Positions 1,934 to 62,309 of a stretch of 64,000 nt of DNA are shown piece by piece (the stretch's first letter is position 1; every line of letters begins with the position of its first letter). The position numbers and the translations under genes were made by a program. The notes under the pieces are model-generated. The model did no database searches and had not been told where the DNA came from. It worked only from the letters and a program-made list of their open reading frames with translations. Source of the DNA: Metaphire vulgaris (lineage: Eukaryota; Annelida; Clitellata; Crassiclitellata; Megascolecidae); contig CM030868.1 in NCBI GenBank assembly GCA_018105865.1, forward strand, positions 7,478,811 to 7,542,810. Reading direction: 5' to 3'.

Positions 1934-2026
1934 CGTTTACGTGGATCATGGTTGGATCTGCTATGATTGCTTGCTGCGTCACAGTATCTTGCGCCATAGC
2001 AATATATGCCAGTAAGCGCCAGAAAG
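1934..2026 (+). CDS. Ig receptor copy 1, transmembrane exon
   Basis: A 93-nt exon between a TTTCAG acceptor and a GTACGA donor, phase 1 at both ends, equal in length to the copy 2 exon and nearly identical to the copy 2 and 3 exons. It encodes a short linker, a hydrophobic helix rich in Met, Ala, Cys, Val and Ile, and a basic stop-transfer run (SKRQK), giving a type I single-pass topology. The upstream Ig exons of this copy lie left of the window; its tail exon is at 7388. A longer open frame on the + strand here is a different frame and not the gene. Confidence 0.85.
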
Positions 2027-2989
2027 GTACGATGGCAAAGCTTCTGTTCATCTAATTATTCTAACACTAGGTGTTTACCCGTCAAATATGACGGGGGAGA
2101 TTGGCTGTTTTACCACCCGATTTTGCGCAAATGCAAGACGATTTTGCGCAATTAATTTCCCTAACTCGCCGCCTTTTCCTTCAACCTTGTTAATTTTGCA
2201 AAAGATCAAAATTACGCCCATTCGCTTGAATTTTCTGAAACTTGATAGCCAAGGTAAGTGTACTGATTTGGTAGTGTCGAACGACATGCAGTGCTTGATT
2301 CTCTTGTTTGCTGTGCTGCTTTTCACGCCGAGCAACAGCCTGCTACTCATTCTCACTTGATTGTCGGAAAGCTCGTGAACGCTGGACTTTTTTGTTTTGC
2401 ACAGAGTGTTAGAAAGAGGAATAAAATAGCTAAACAATGGTGCAAACCTCATCTTCTTAGCTCTTATATAGCCTGAGATATATCAAATTCAAAAAAATTG
2501 GAAACTTTCTCAGAATTCAAAACTTTCGCGAAATTCGCTCATAATACTTATGTTCAAACATTGGGGTCATCGGGTTAGAACGGATAGATCTTTACCAAAT
2601 GTCAACCGATTTTCAAAATTTTTGGTTTATTTTGTTCCTCTGACATCCCTTTACAACTTTGCCGCTGACCAAAGTGGGGTTACCGCTTAAAATATTTTGC
2701 TAGGGGCTTTAAAATGTTTTGGGGGAGAGGGTGATATTTTAGGCCGTAAAGTGGACTCTACCCCCAAGTTTTTTTTGTTTTGCACGGACGGTTAGAAAGA
2801 GGAATAAACAATCTAAACAATGGTGCAAACCTAATCTTTTTAGCTCCTACATAGCCTGAGATATAGCAAATTTAAAACGTTACAGCAATCATTTCTGAAG
2901 AACGCTTTTCCAAAAATTAAATCCCCAGTACGGTGACGGCGTCTGAAAATTTAATCCCAACTTGAGGGGTTAAATTTTAAAAAATAGGG

Positions 2990-3590
2990 TTTGAGGTTAG
3001 GAAGGAGTAAATATATATAATAACGGGGGGCAGGGCATTGGGAGAGGAAAGGAAGATTTGGGAGGAGGAAAGTGGGTTGTACGGGTTTTCGGAGCAGCGT
3101 TGTGTAGGTTTGGGAACGGGGTCTGTGGCCGTAGGTTTGGGAACGGAGTTTGGGGCCGGTGGAGTAGAGCGGAGCGGTGATGGGTTGGGGCCCAAGCGAT
3201 TGGGAAAGGGATGGTGAGAGGAATGGGGGTTGGGAGAGGGAAGGGGTTGGGAGAGGAAGGGTAACGGGGATTTGGGGCCTGTGGGGTAGGGTGGGGCGGG
3301 TATGGGTTGGGGCCTGGGCGGAGATGTGTTGGGCCGGAGCGATTGGGAGAGGGAAGAGGGGTTGGGAGAGGGAATGAGAACGGGGTTTGGGGCCTGTGGG
3401 GTAGGGCGGGGCGGGTATGGGTTGGGGCCTGCGGCTGGGCGGGGATGTGTTGGGGCCGGGGCAATTGGGAGAGGGATGGGGAGAGGGAAGGGGAAGGAGA
3501 TTGGGGCCAGAGCGGGAATGGGTTGGGGCCTGGGCGATTGGGAGAGGGATGGGGTGAGGGAAGTGGGACGGGGATTGTTGCAATTAAGAC
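2990..3590. repeat. G-rich minisatellite inside Helitron A
   Basis: Degenerate tandem units of roughly 60 bp built on GGGTTGGGGCC, GGCGATTGGGAGAGGGA and GGGGAGAGGGAAGGGG. The + strand is strongly G-rich with many runs of three or more G, so quadruplex formation is plausible. The array is open in several frames on both strands because it lacks stop triplets; that is not evidence of coding. A C-rich counterpart is at 52150-52740. Confidence 0.85.
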
Positions 3591-3722
3591 GCTTCGTTAA
3601 ACGCCCCGTTGATTATAATACATTTTTGATTAAACAATATTTGGTTGTCAATGACAACAGCGTCTTGCAATACCTGCCATGTTGCCGTCAGGCCGTCCGC
3701 CCGTCCGCCGGACATCGAGAAT

Positions 3723-3771
3723 TATATATATATATATATATATATATATATATATATATATATATATATAT
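3723..3771. repeat. (TA)n at the Helitron A 5' end
   Basis: About 24 uninterrupted TA repeats. In the 43981 Helitron the same position holds only a short TATATATATA run, so this tract expanded after insertion and hides the original TC start. Confidence 0.9.
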
Positions 3772-3949
3772 CTCTTAAATAATAAATCTCTTTTGTAAGT
3801 TTGTTAAGTTTGTCAGTCACGATTAACGGCAGATGTTGGAAGACGACGTTGCCATTGACAACCAAATTGTTTAATCAATCGACTGAGCGTTTGACGAAGC
3901 GTCTTCAATGCGGCTTAACGAATCGTCCTGATTGAATGCACGTTATACG
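3772..3949 (+). mobile_element. Second, inverted Helitron head fragment
   Basis: Positions about 3825-3905 (GTTGCCATTGACAACCAAAT … GCGTTTGACGAAGCGTCTT) are an inverted, diverged copy of about 3585-3690. Two related Helitron 5' regions therefore seem to lie head to head around the (TA)n tract. No 3' end for this second piece was found. Confidence 0.4.
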
Positions 3950-4225
3950 ACACCACTGGGGGCGCAGTAACCCGTGTGGCGCCGTAGGCCTTATTGGGGA
4001 CGCAGTCCCCCGTGTTGGGCCGTAGCCTGTAGACCCTACTTGAAGGGGGCGCAGCCTCCCGTCGTAAACCATGCCCTAACCGACGTGGGGACCGTAGGCC
4101 CTACTGGGGCACAGCCTCCCGTCGGAGACCAAGCCCATGCCCCCGAGGGAGGCCGTAGGCCCCACTGAGGGGCGCTGCCCCACGTGTGGGGCCGCAAGTC
4201 CTACTGGGTGGCGCGGCCCCATGTG
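3950..4225. repeat. GC-rich minisatellite (about 60-bp units)
   Basis: Four to five imperfect units of the type ACTGGGGGCGCAGTCCCCCG followed by a GGGCCGTAGGCC-like block. Each unit contains short self-complementary GC stretches. No function is apparent. Confidence 0.7.
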
Positions 4226-4335
4226 AGGCATCATCATCATCATCATCATCATCATCATCATCATCATCATCATCATCATCAACAACAACAACAACAACAA
4301 AAACATCATCATCATCACCACCATCATCATCACCG
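4226..4335. repeat. Compound (CAT)n/(CAA)n microsatellite
   Basis: Runs of CAT, then CAA, then CAT again. Poly-His and poly-Met frames over it are artefacts of the repeat. Confidence 0.9.
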
Positions 4336-60837: not shown

Positions 60838-60918
60838 AGAGAGAGAGAGAGAGAGAGAGAGAGAGAGAGAGAGAGAGAGAGAGAGAGAGAGAGAGAGAGA
60901 GAGAGAGAGAGAGAGAGT
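60838..60918. repeat. (GA)n microsatellite
   Basis: Paralogue of 22026-22104, about 40 units. Confidence 0.95.
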
Positions 60919-61472
60919 TGCATTTTAAATGGTCCATTTTAAATGGTCCATTTACGAAAATCTTTGTTCTTCGGTCACGTTTATCTGACGCGACTTAACA
61001 TCTTGTAAAGCATTCTCTACCGATTATTATTACACATTAACGTTGGCCTAACTACGTATGAAATAGAGACATCTGAAGATAAGGCAATTTATTTAATGAA
61101 GATGTCATGATGGAAAATATCATATGAGAGGGAATCTTTCATATGAATATTTTGAATATTTTATTGTTTTTATGATTGTTGTGTAGAAGATAAGCTACTC
61201 AAGATTGCTTCAGAAGGCCAAAAAAATCGTAAGAATTTTATAAATTATTTCCCCTTGCAAATACATGTGTACTTTTGCTTCAAAGATAGCAATAATGCCA
61301 TTATGGCCCGCCATCAAAGCCATTGTTGAATGTCCTAGGCAGTAGGCACTAACTTTCAATTCCTGAGCTCAGGATATGAAACTCGCTCATGATGATACAA
61401 GTTTGTCTTGATTCCCTCATGACCATTAGATCAAGACTTGTGAAATTCTCTATCTCCCATTGGGCCATTGCC

Positions 61473-61659
61473 CAGTGTTTATTCTAGGCCTTCTTAGGGG
61501 GGAATTCCCCCCCCCAAGTTTGAAAATTCCCCCCAAATTTTGTTAGATGTTGGCTGGGGGAATGGAAATTTTCCCCCAAACGTGTGGAAACTCAAACCTT
61601 GTCCCCCAAACATTTCAAAATCCCCCCAATGTCAAGGGGGCTAGAATAAACACTGGCCA
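61473..61659. mobile_element. hAT-type MITE in copy 3 intron 3 (about 187 bp)
   Basis: Ends CAGTGTTTATTCTAGGCC and GGCTAGAATAAACACTGG, flanked by CCATTGCC on both sides (1-nt ambiguity). Copy 2 has the single site at about 22646-22655. Same family as 35430-35758. Confidence 0.85.
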
Positions 61660-61739
61660 TTGCCTGTTGTTATTAGCAGCGGAAGACAAAGTCATGCGTA
61701 TTCGCAGATCTTGAAACTTACTTAAATAAACTATAGCGT

Positions 61740-61880
61740 TGTTTAAAGTGGATTAGAATTAGGAAGCTAGGATGCATTACTGCCTGCGAGAAGGCCACTA
61801 GGGGCGCTAACGGTGATTGAACTCTGATCCGTCAGCCTACCGCTCCAGCGCCTAACCCGCTCTTCCATTTTCCTCCCCCC
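61740..61880 (-). mobile_element. tRNA-derived SINE-like repeat (copy 3)
   Basis: Counterpart of 22725-22870, with the same minus-strand A-box and B-box-like segments. Confidence 0.5.
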
Positions 61881-62210
61881 AAAGCTTCAAAGCTAAGATA
61901 GGCTGATGCAAAAATGCAATACAGAAATAGCGCTTTAGAAGTTTTAGTCAATTATGCAGAATACTGATACTGTGGACCTGAGAAAGTATCCCTATTTGAG
62001 TTTCCGTGGTAGCCTAAATTGAAAATCCGATTTGTCAATTTTCTTGTTCCAAAAGCAGAGACCCTTTATTATGACGTCCGCTGTGCAGTAAGACTTACTT
62101 TAGCGGAATTTAGCCAGCATACACTTCAACACTGATTTCTAAACAGTTTTGGAGAAAATATAATAGATTTCTTTCTTTTCTTGCAACAAAAATGTCTCTA
62201 ATATTTTCAG

Positions 62211-62309
62211 CGTTTACGTGGATCATGGTTGGATCTGCTATGATTGCTTGCTTCGTTACAGTATGCTGTGCCATAGCAATATATGGCTATGCCAGTAAGC
62301 GCCAGAAAG
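62211..62309 (+). CDS. Ig receptor copy 3, transmembrane exon (+6 nt)
   Basis: 99 nt instead of 93: an in-frame six-base insertion changes IYASKRQK to IYGYASKRQK at the inner membrane border. Acceptor ATTTTCAG and donor GTACGA are conserved. The added Gly-Tyr lengthens the juxtamembrane piece by two residues. Confidence 0.85.

Follow-up and report, generated by a model that had tools for sequence, protein, structure and literature searches.

What kind of gene is repeated along this part of the Metaphire vulgaris genome, and do its copies still have the makings of working receptors? The window, that is, the whole stretch of 64,000 nucleotides analysed here, belongs to an array that probably represents a fast-changing, birth-and-death tandem family of ITAM-type IgSF type I recognition receptors, with a putative role in immunity or in self/non-self recognition. 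The structure of the gene is best approached through copy B, the only copy lying whole and intact inside the window:

11785..11821, + strand: copy B exon 1 (37 nt), with the start codon and the signal peptide MYFLFLMFLSVLG, ending in phase 1 (sequence, splice site, frame)
17100..17390, + strand: copy B exon 2, Ig1, V/I-set-like (Pfam, AlphaFold2, fold matches)
19467..19766, + strand: copy B exon 3, Ig2, C-like, with two extra cysteines (Pfam, AlphaFold2, fold matches)
30451..30543, + strand: copy B exon 4, transmembrane helix and the first basic cytoplasmic residues, KRQK (splice sites and frame, by eye)
35129..35364, + strand: copy B exon 5, cytoplasmic tail with six tyrosines, ITAM-like YQGL-x12-YESI and stop codon (sequence, frame)

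Spliced together, these five exons form an open frame of 318 aa that runs from the signal peptide through Ig1, Ig2 and the transmembrane helix to the tail and its stop codon. The signal peptide and the helix were assigned by eye, the latter on hydrophobicity. All four introns are bounded by GT...AG and all four are phase 1, as the preliminary description had claimed; its five exon coordinates for this middle copy are exact, as are the outer limits that it gave, the transmembrane exon of copy A starting at 1934 and that of copy C ending at 62309. It had also counted four of the five exons as not standing out as open reading frames. This holds for the signal peptide and transmembrane exons, which are absent from the ORF list, and for the tail exon, whose frame of 83 aa falls below the list minimum of 90 aa, but not for Ig1 and Ig2, whose stop-to-stop frames, 137 and 112 aa long, are both listed. 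With three of its five exons inconspicuous, a gene of this type can readily escape an ORF scan.

A Pfam search with copy B returned Ig_3, I-set and ig above cut-off. The Ig_3 match (E 1.9e-13), together with exons that recur in order across copies, indicates that the gene structure is not due to chance. The Ig fold, with its conserved cysteine pair and tryptophan columns, places the protein in the IgSF. Fold prediction, proposed beforehand for both domains, gave AlphaFold2 models of Ig1 (mean pLDDT 87.5) and Ig2 (mean pLDDT 75.8, moderate confidence) that match Ig folds in the PDB. Assignment of Ig2 to the C1-set was retained only for the most remote reading considered below: Foldseek returned a single match at E <= 0.001 for this moderate-confidence model, the VIA rows being a re-ranking of Foldseek's own list.

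A genome search extended the array to four tandem copies, A to D (C37:7469849-7570356), where three head to tail had been counted. Copy A starts approximately 9 kb upstream of the window, with its signal peptide, Ig1 and Ig2 exons at C37:7469849, 7473139 and 7477561; downstream lie the tail of copy C (C37:7545780-7546015) and all of copy D, which is intact and encodes 317 aa. The five exons recur in order across A to D, the tail exon of copy A being broken. Copies B and D are intact, while two of the four, A and C, are damaged. Their parts inside the window are as follows:

1934..2026, + strand: copy A exon 4, transmembrane (genome search, splice sites and frame)
7388..7423, + strand: opening 36 nt of the copy A tail exon, ahead of the insertion (sequence)
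7424..8367, + strand: 944-bp insertion splitting the copy A tail exon, ends CAGTG...CACTG, 8-base duplication CGTACTTG (sequence)
8368..8570, + strand: remainder of the copy A tail exon, severed by the insertion, with an in-frame TAA (genome search, sequence)
42901..42937, + strand: copy C exon 1, signal peptide (genome search, splice sites and frame)
55380..55671, + strand: copy C exon 2, Ig1, its frame shifted by one base at ~55602 (genome search, splice sites and frame)
59290..59589, + strand: copy C exon 3, Ig2 (genome search, splice sites and frame)
62211..62309, + strand: copy C exon 4, transmembrane, the helix exceeding that of B by two residues (genome search, splice sites and frame)

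The frame of copy A continues into the inserted element, which we take to be hAT-like, and reaches a stop at 7468-7470. The resulting tail of 27 residues has two other tyrosines but not the YQGL, YESI and YLEL of B. Two further copies of the element, 98.3% alike, lie nearby, and the window is rich in transposable elements and repeats.

Beyond the array, the genome search identified two close relatives, copy E on C24 and copy F on C117, as well as more distant relatives clustered on C20 and C28. The whole-genome search for further copies suggested at the outset yielded copy D and these relatives; half of the array copies proved to be broken. The signal peptide exon was found in all six copies, A to F, and the first three exons are present on C24 and C117. 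Copy E also has a transmembrane exon (C24:122864-122947), and a filter for at least two Yxx[LIVM] within at least 30 codons found no convincing tail exon across the 27.9 kb downstream; for copy F, tblastn gave no convincing transmembrane or tail match in 28.9 kb downstream. Three of the C20 genes were read. One of them, L031, encodes Ig1, Ig2, a third Ig domain, a transmembrane segment and a tail with the canonical ITAM YESL-x10-YLRL, its junctions reading as phase 1. In the other two, L032 and L037, Ig1, Ig2, Ig3 and the transmembrane segment are present and an ITAM tail was not found within the 9 kb read, the sole pattern match in L037 being a low-complexity frame.

The ITAM consensus is Yxx[L/I]-x(6-12)-Yxx[L/I], x12 being the widest spacing permitted. 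Copies B, C and D each have YQGL-x12-YESI in the tail, matching the pattern Y..[LI].{6,12}Y..[LI]; the tyrosine-rich tail that had been described for these tandem two-Ig type I membrane receptors proves to hold an ITAM-type pair. Among 20,000 composition shuffles of each tail, the pattern arose in 397 for B, 428 for C, 113 for D and 95 for L031. The YQGL-YESI stretch is moreover the best conserved part of the tail between B and D, with 2 amino-acid changes in the 31 residues that hold both motifs and 18 in the remaining 47 (Fisher p 0.0014, for a stretch picked after inspection). Several points count against the reading as ITAM-type recognition receptors: the spacing of the pair is at the wide limit, two of the four array copies are broken, D no longer has YLEL, and copies E and F and two C20 members are ITAM-less within the DNA examined.

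Could the family be inhibitory instead of activating? The ITIM consensus is [S/I/V/L]xYxx[I/L/V], and YLEL, found in the tails of B and C, resembles its core; in the C20 tail of L031, SSYEDI and SRYESL fit [SIVL]xYxx[ILV]. Nevertheless, ITIMs were rejected for B, C and D, where no tyrosine combines S/I/V/L at -2 with I/L/V at +3, and D has lost YLEL yet keeps the ITAM-spaced pair, which makes an ITIM-type family very unlikely. A family serving adhesion or neural wiring outside immunity, comparable to Dpr/DIP or Neph, in which Ig-Ig binding would link cells and tail tyrosines would recruit SH2/PTB adaptors during development, is unlikely. The matches in fold are of the generic Ig kind, and local tandem birth-and-death, the presence of broken copies and the conservation of an ITAM-spaced pair suit recognition receptors better than conserved wiring genes.

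We regard as quite unlikely that the array is simply decaying, its copies drifting from a once-useful receptor and B and D open by luck. Decay would agree with the broken copies A and C, with a window full of mobile and repeated DNA, and with dN/dS of ~1 or more in Ig2 and tail among the array copies, which, on few changes, fits relaxed constraint as well. However, B and D have retained their splice sites and an open frame as well as the ITAM-like pair, and Ig1 leans to constraint (dN/dS 0.38-0.73, p 0.01-0.05 in the four non-independent pairs tested), as does the comparison of E with F (12 nonsynonymous and 10 synonymous changes, binomial p 0.0096). The chances of remaining free of stops under random substitutions from B, namely 0.10 for A, 0.24 for D, 0.056 for E and 0.050 for F, are suggestive of constraint at best. 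The exons of a single copy also differ in age: dS between A and B is 0.25 in Ig1 and 0.05 in Ig2, while dS between A and C is 0 in Ig2. Such histories agree with gene conversion or a reshuffling of exons among the copies, in line with the exon shuffling that phase-1 introns had been said to allow.

How does a putative family of recognition receptors of this build compare with known systems? A model of mean pLDDT 76 resembles vertebrate B7/PD-L1-type V-C proteins in fold at 17% identity. B7 proteins were absent from the sequence matches listed, and they are not known to have an ITAM-type tail. It is a long shot that the locus, with a V-like plus C1-like ectodomain on its own ITAM tail in a recombining tandem array, would parallel the V-C antigen-receptor plan, either as a candidate analogue that does not rearrange or as a distant relative; it might then be an allorecognition locus of this species that has gone unrecognised.

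A literature search, mostly of papers free of subscription, yielded none that we recognised as dealing with this two-Ig family. Its kind, for which no named match had been offered, does have precedent, as ITAM/ITIM-tailed IgSF families of Hydractinia and Botryllus and an ITAM receptor of oyster are described in the available parts of two papers (PMC11999971, PMC12065747). There, the Hydractinia Alr family is said to number 41 members within a single complex; Alr1 and Alr2 are reported to tell self from non-self, and candidate allorecognition genes to bear ITAM and ITIM domains (PMC11999971, PMC12065747). Clustered invertebrate IgSF genes with V-set and I-set domains are the shared feature; self/non-self function and 41 members distinguish Alr from the present array, which is known from the sequence of one genome and likened by description. 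Botryllus FcoR proteins, in the portion available, likewise form a multigene set of type I receptors, whose Ig domains are V-type and C2-type and whose tails bear ITIM, hemITAM or core Yxx[ILV] motifs; they combine a sushi domain with three Ig domains in 520-610 aa (PMC12065747), unlike copy B (318 aa), whose membership was rejected because it has two Ig domains and no sushi match in Pfam. CgIgIT2 of Crassostrea gigas, likewise a membrane receptor of the invertebrate IgSF that bears an ITAM itself and is reported to act in microbe recognition and ERK signalling, has five Ig domains and a transmembrane segment, and the available text does not describe it as a tandem two-Ig family (PMC11999971); copy B was excluded on its two Ig domains. 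FREPs join a fibrinogen domain to one or two IgSF domains according to the part available (PMC7588048), and copy B was set apart from them by the lack of a fibrinogen match in Pfam and by its transmembrane helix and tail. By analogy with Alr, FcoR and CgIgIT2, the array would most likely be a further member of an already known receptor kind. Families of recognition IgSF proteins signalling through ITAM or ITIM are described for few invertebrates in the literature found, as far as its available parts go.

As a recognition receptor, the protein would meet an extracellular ligand through its distal V/I-set-like and membrane-proximal C-like domains. Clustering would then allow the paired YxxL/I tyrosines to be phosphorylated by a Src-type kinase, and the phosphorylated pair would recruit a SYK/ZAP-70-class tandem-SH2 kinase in ITAM-type signalling. 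Copies would diverge, trade exons through recombination or conversion, and be lost, as expected for immune or self/non-self receptors. Surface expression, phosphorylation, kinase binding and an immune or allorecognition role are what we infer from the genomic DNA. If expressed, the array would provide a compact and tractable case in which to learn whether such receptors serve immunity or self-recognition and how phase-1 exons swap between copies: the gene has five exons, and of its copies two are intact, one is short-tailed and one is frameshifted.

A possible partner is present in the genome, where the SYK-class kinase motif KWPLKWYAPE occurs at three loci (reversed pattern, 0 matches). Two of the three kinase exons were compared with solved structures and matched SYK/ZAP-70, clearly in one case; for the other, a TYK2 row ranks above ZAP-70/SYK. 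The exon of the third locus, on C38, reads like that on C40. On the kinase part, which alone was compared, these exons would fit SYK/ZAP-70, with Shark as the alternative. The top row for both compared exons is 9p9u_A, labelled EGFR and oddly placed, followed by SYK/ZAP-70 in one case and by TYK2 and then ZAP-70/SYK in the other.

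The array spanning the window is a real and well-read gene family, of a kind already known. The window lies at C37:7478811-7542810, in a genome of 728 Mb and 246 contigs whose Ig and SYK-like genes mark it as an animal's. The middle copy (B) has exactly the five exons placed by the preliminary description:

window 11785-11821: copy B signal peptide exon
window 17100-17390: copy B first immunoglobulin domain (Ig1) exon
window 19467-19766: copy B second immunoglobulin domain (Ig2) exon
window 30451-30543: copy B transmembrane exon
window 35129-35364: copy B tail exon, including the stop

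All four introns are in phase 1, as had been claimed, with GT/AG junctions, and the open spliced frame (318 aa) matches Pfam Ig_3 (E 1.9e-13), I-set (7.9e-10), ig (4.9e-7) and Ig_2 (4.9e-6), with nothing besides Ig families above the cut-offs. Exon peptides searched over 164 kb around the window reveal copies in one shared orientation; the head-to-tail arrangement described earlier thus stands, with four copies (A to D) instead of three. The limits given there, 1934 and 62309, mark where the transmembrane exon of A begins and that of C ends.

Copies B and D, at 318 and 317 aa respectively, each keep an open frame with every splice junction GT/AG. The tail exon of copy A is split by a 944-bp hAT-like element, bounded by CAGTG/CACTG termini and flanked by a target duplication of 8 bases; read on, this tail has 27 residues, lacking YQGL, YESI and YLEL and including two other tyrosines, and copy A could yield a short-tailed surface receptor. 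Copy C, with one surplus base in Ig1, cannot yield a full receptor.

The copy B tail bears six tyrosines, of which TYQGL and HYESI match the ITAM pattern Y..[LI].{6,12}Y..[LI]; B, C and D all space the two motifs 12 residues apart. Shuffling each tail 20,000 times at constant composition produced this pattern 397 times for B, 428 for C, 113 for D and 95 for a related gene on contig C20. Between B and D, the pair-bearing stretch has changes at 2 of its 31 residues, against 18 in the other 47; Fisher's test gives p 0.0014, a flattering value because the stretch was picked after looking. Copy D has lost YLEL. No tail tyrosine of B, C or D fits the ITIM rule.

Candidate partners for such a tail were sought with KWP-x-KWYAPE, the SYK-class activation segment. 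As a DNA pattern it occurs three times in the genome, and its reversal not once:

C4:11796986: SYK-class motif exon
C38:3957820: SYK-class motif exon
C40:7446293: SYK-class motif exon

The C40 and C4 loci were compared by similarity search. The C40 exon matches SYK/ZAP-70 at E ~4e-22 and the next kinase group at 2e-15, with one EGFR-labelled entry ranking above. The C4 upstream exon matches ZAP-70/SYK at ~2e-19 to 2e-18; it scores better against a TYK2 chain (2e-22) and the same EGFR-labelled entry, so that this exon alone is not decisive. Over the motif exon, C38 and C40 have the same protein sequence, so the two are either recently duplicated or alleles that were left unmerged. According to passages of a survey (PMC5978004), vertebrate-like SYK/ZAP-70 homologues occur among invertebrates only where CARD-CC/Bcl10 exists.

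The gene, its copies, the tail motif and the kinase exons are present in the assembly. From these, the product would be a cell-surface receptor clustered by a ligand, whose tail tyrosines would become phosphorylated and recruit a SYK-class kinase. A role in immunity or self-recognition is suggested by analogy with systems outlined in parts of two papers: Hydractinia Alr (41 genes; PMC11999971, PMC12065747), Botryllus FcoR (53 loci; ITIM, hemITAM or core motifs; PMC12065747) and oyster CgIgIT2 (five Ig, ITAM; PMC11999971). The window family is of the same kind as all three; it is likened to Alr by description and falls outside the membership definitions of FcoR and CgIgIT2. At the level of the genes, the anatomy of the array is sound, and the signalling logic proposed for it is likely.

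The genome-wide search for further copies, proposed in the preliminary description, found relatives outside the array on C24, C117, C20 and C28. The outer copies and two close relatives (E, F) lie as follows:

C37, from 7469849: copy A
C37, 7556661 to 7570356: copy D
C24, 122.9-125.9 kb: copy E, with signal peptide, Ig1, Ig2 and transmembrane exons
C117, 59.7-61.1 kb: copy F, with signal peptide, Ig1 and Ig2 exons

For copy B Ig1, 106 candidates were scored and 21 passed E <= 1e-3, with six at or below 2e-31. For Ig2, 112 were scored and 34 passed E <= 0.01, with six at or below 3e-39 and the others possibly generic Ig; the tail matched four of eight at E <= 1, all within the C37 array. Copies E and F are 96% alike across 2.3 kb and could represent two alleles, or else a duplication of recent date. 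The transmembrane exon of E is diverged (C24:122864-122947). No tail is recognisable in the 27.9 kb examined downstream of E, and this copy may be a partner receptor with a short tail.

At C20:9.36-9.48 Mb, relatives with three Ig domains form a larger cluster. With a C20 Ig1 as query, 153 candidates came up and 150 were scored, of which 23 matched at E <= 1e-4. Seven of these lie in the C20 cluster (9.36-9.48 Mb; one has an internal stop), six are on C24 and four on C28, C23 and C50 hold a single match each, and members of the window's own family are also among the 23. The four Ig1-like exons at C28:3.40-3.64 Mb probably represent a third cluster. Among the C20 genes, L031 on the minus strand was followed furthest; from Ig1 onwards it runs Ig1, Ig2, third Ig, transmembrane and tail, with junctions read as phase 1; its Ig2 searched alone has no Pfam match, and its tail carries YESL-x10-YLRL and two ITIM-like motifs. 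Two others (L032, L037) have Ig1, Ig2, Ig3 and transmembrane exons, with no ITAM tail found inside the 9 kb read, leaving a canonical ITAM tail in one of the three genes examined.

By Nei-Gojobori estimates (own script), Ig1 dN/dS spans 0.38-0.73 over ten pairs. E and F differ across Ig1 and Ig2 by 12 nonsynonymous and 10 synonymous changes, a departure from neutrality at p 0.0096. Another four Ig1 pairs, chosen and non-independent, give p 0.01-0.05 with site fractions from E-F. Ig2 dN/dS within A-D is 1.0-3.0, on at most four synonymous changes (A-C: 11 nonsynonymous, none synonymous, ratio undefined), and the B-D tail value is 1.05; either diversifying selection or relaxed constraint would fit these ratios. 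Within a copy, the exons have had different histories: A-B dS is 0.25 in Ig1 and 0.05 in Ig2, and B and C differ at 1 of 234 tail bases with 85% Ig2 protein identity. Together with the patchy identity of aligned stretches (~70% to 95%, three 65-67% matches left aside), this points to exon exchange between array copies.

The hAT-like element is recently active around the array, where two more copies, 98.3% identical, lie at window 1-638 (from C37:7478504) and C37:7471407-7472351. Intron 3 of copy B houses an LTR retrotransposon (window 22943-30202) with TG...CA ends, open frames that by eye resemble gag-pol, what seems to be a 4-base duplication (agaa) and LTRs matching at 99.6% identity (22941-23834 versus 29310-30202); its site is empty in copy C (~61958-61962), and the insertion is therefore recent. 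The first introns of B and C contain long repeats of low complexity (window 11917-12587 and 42942-43444, respectively), which give rise to spurious ORFs there. Beyond copy D, a 319-aa open frame on the minus strand (C37:7596782-7597738), which by eye we take to resemble a DCUN1D3-type protein, may mark the flank of the array.
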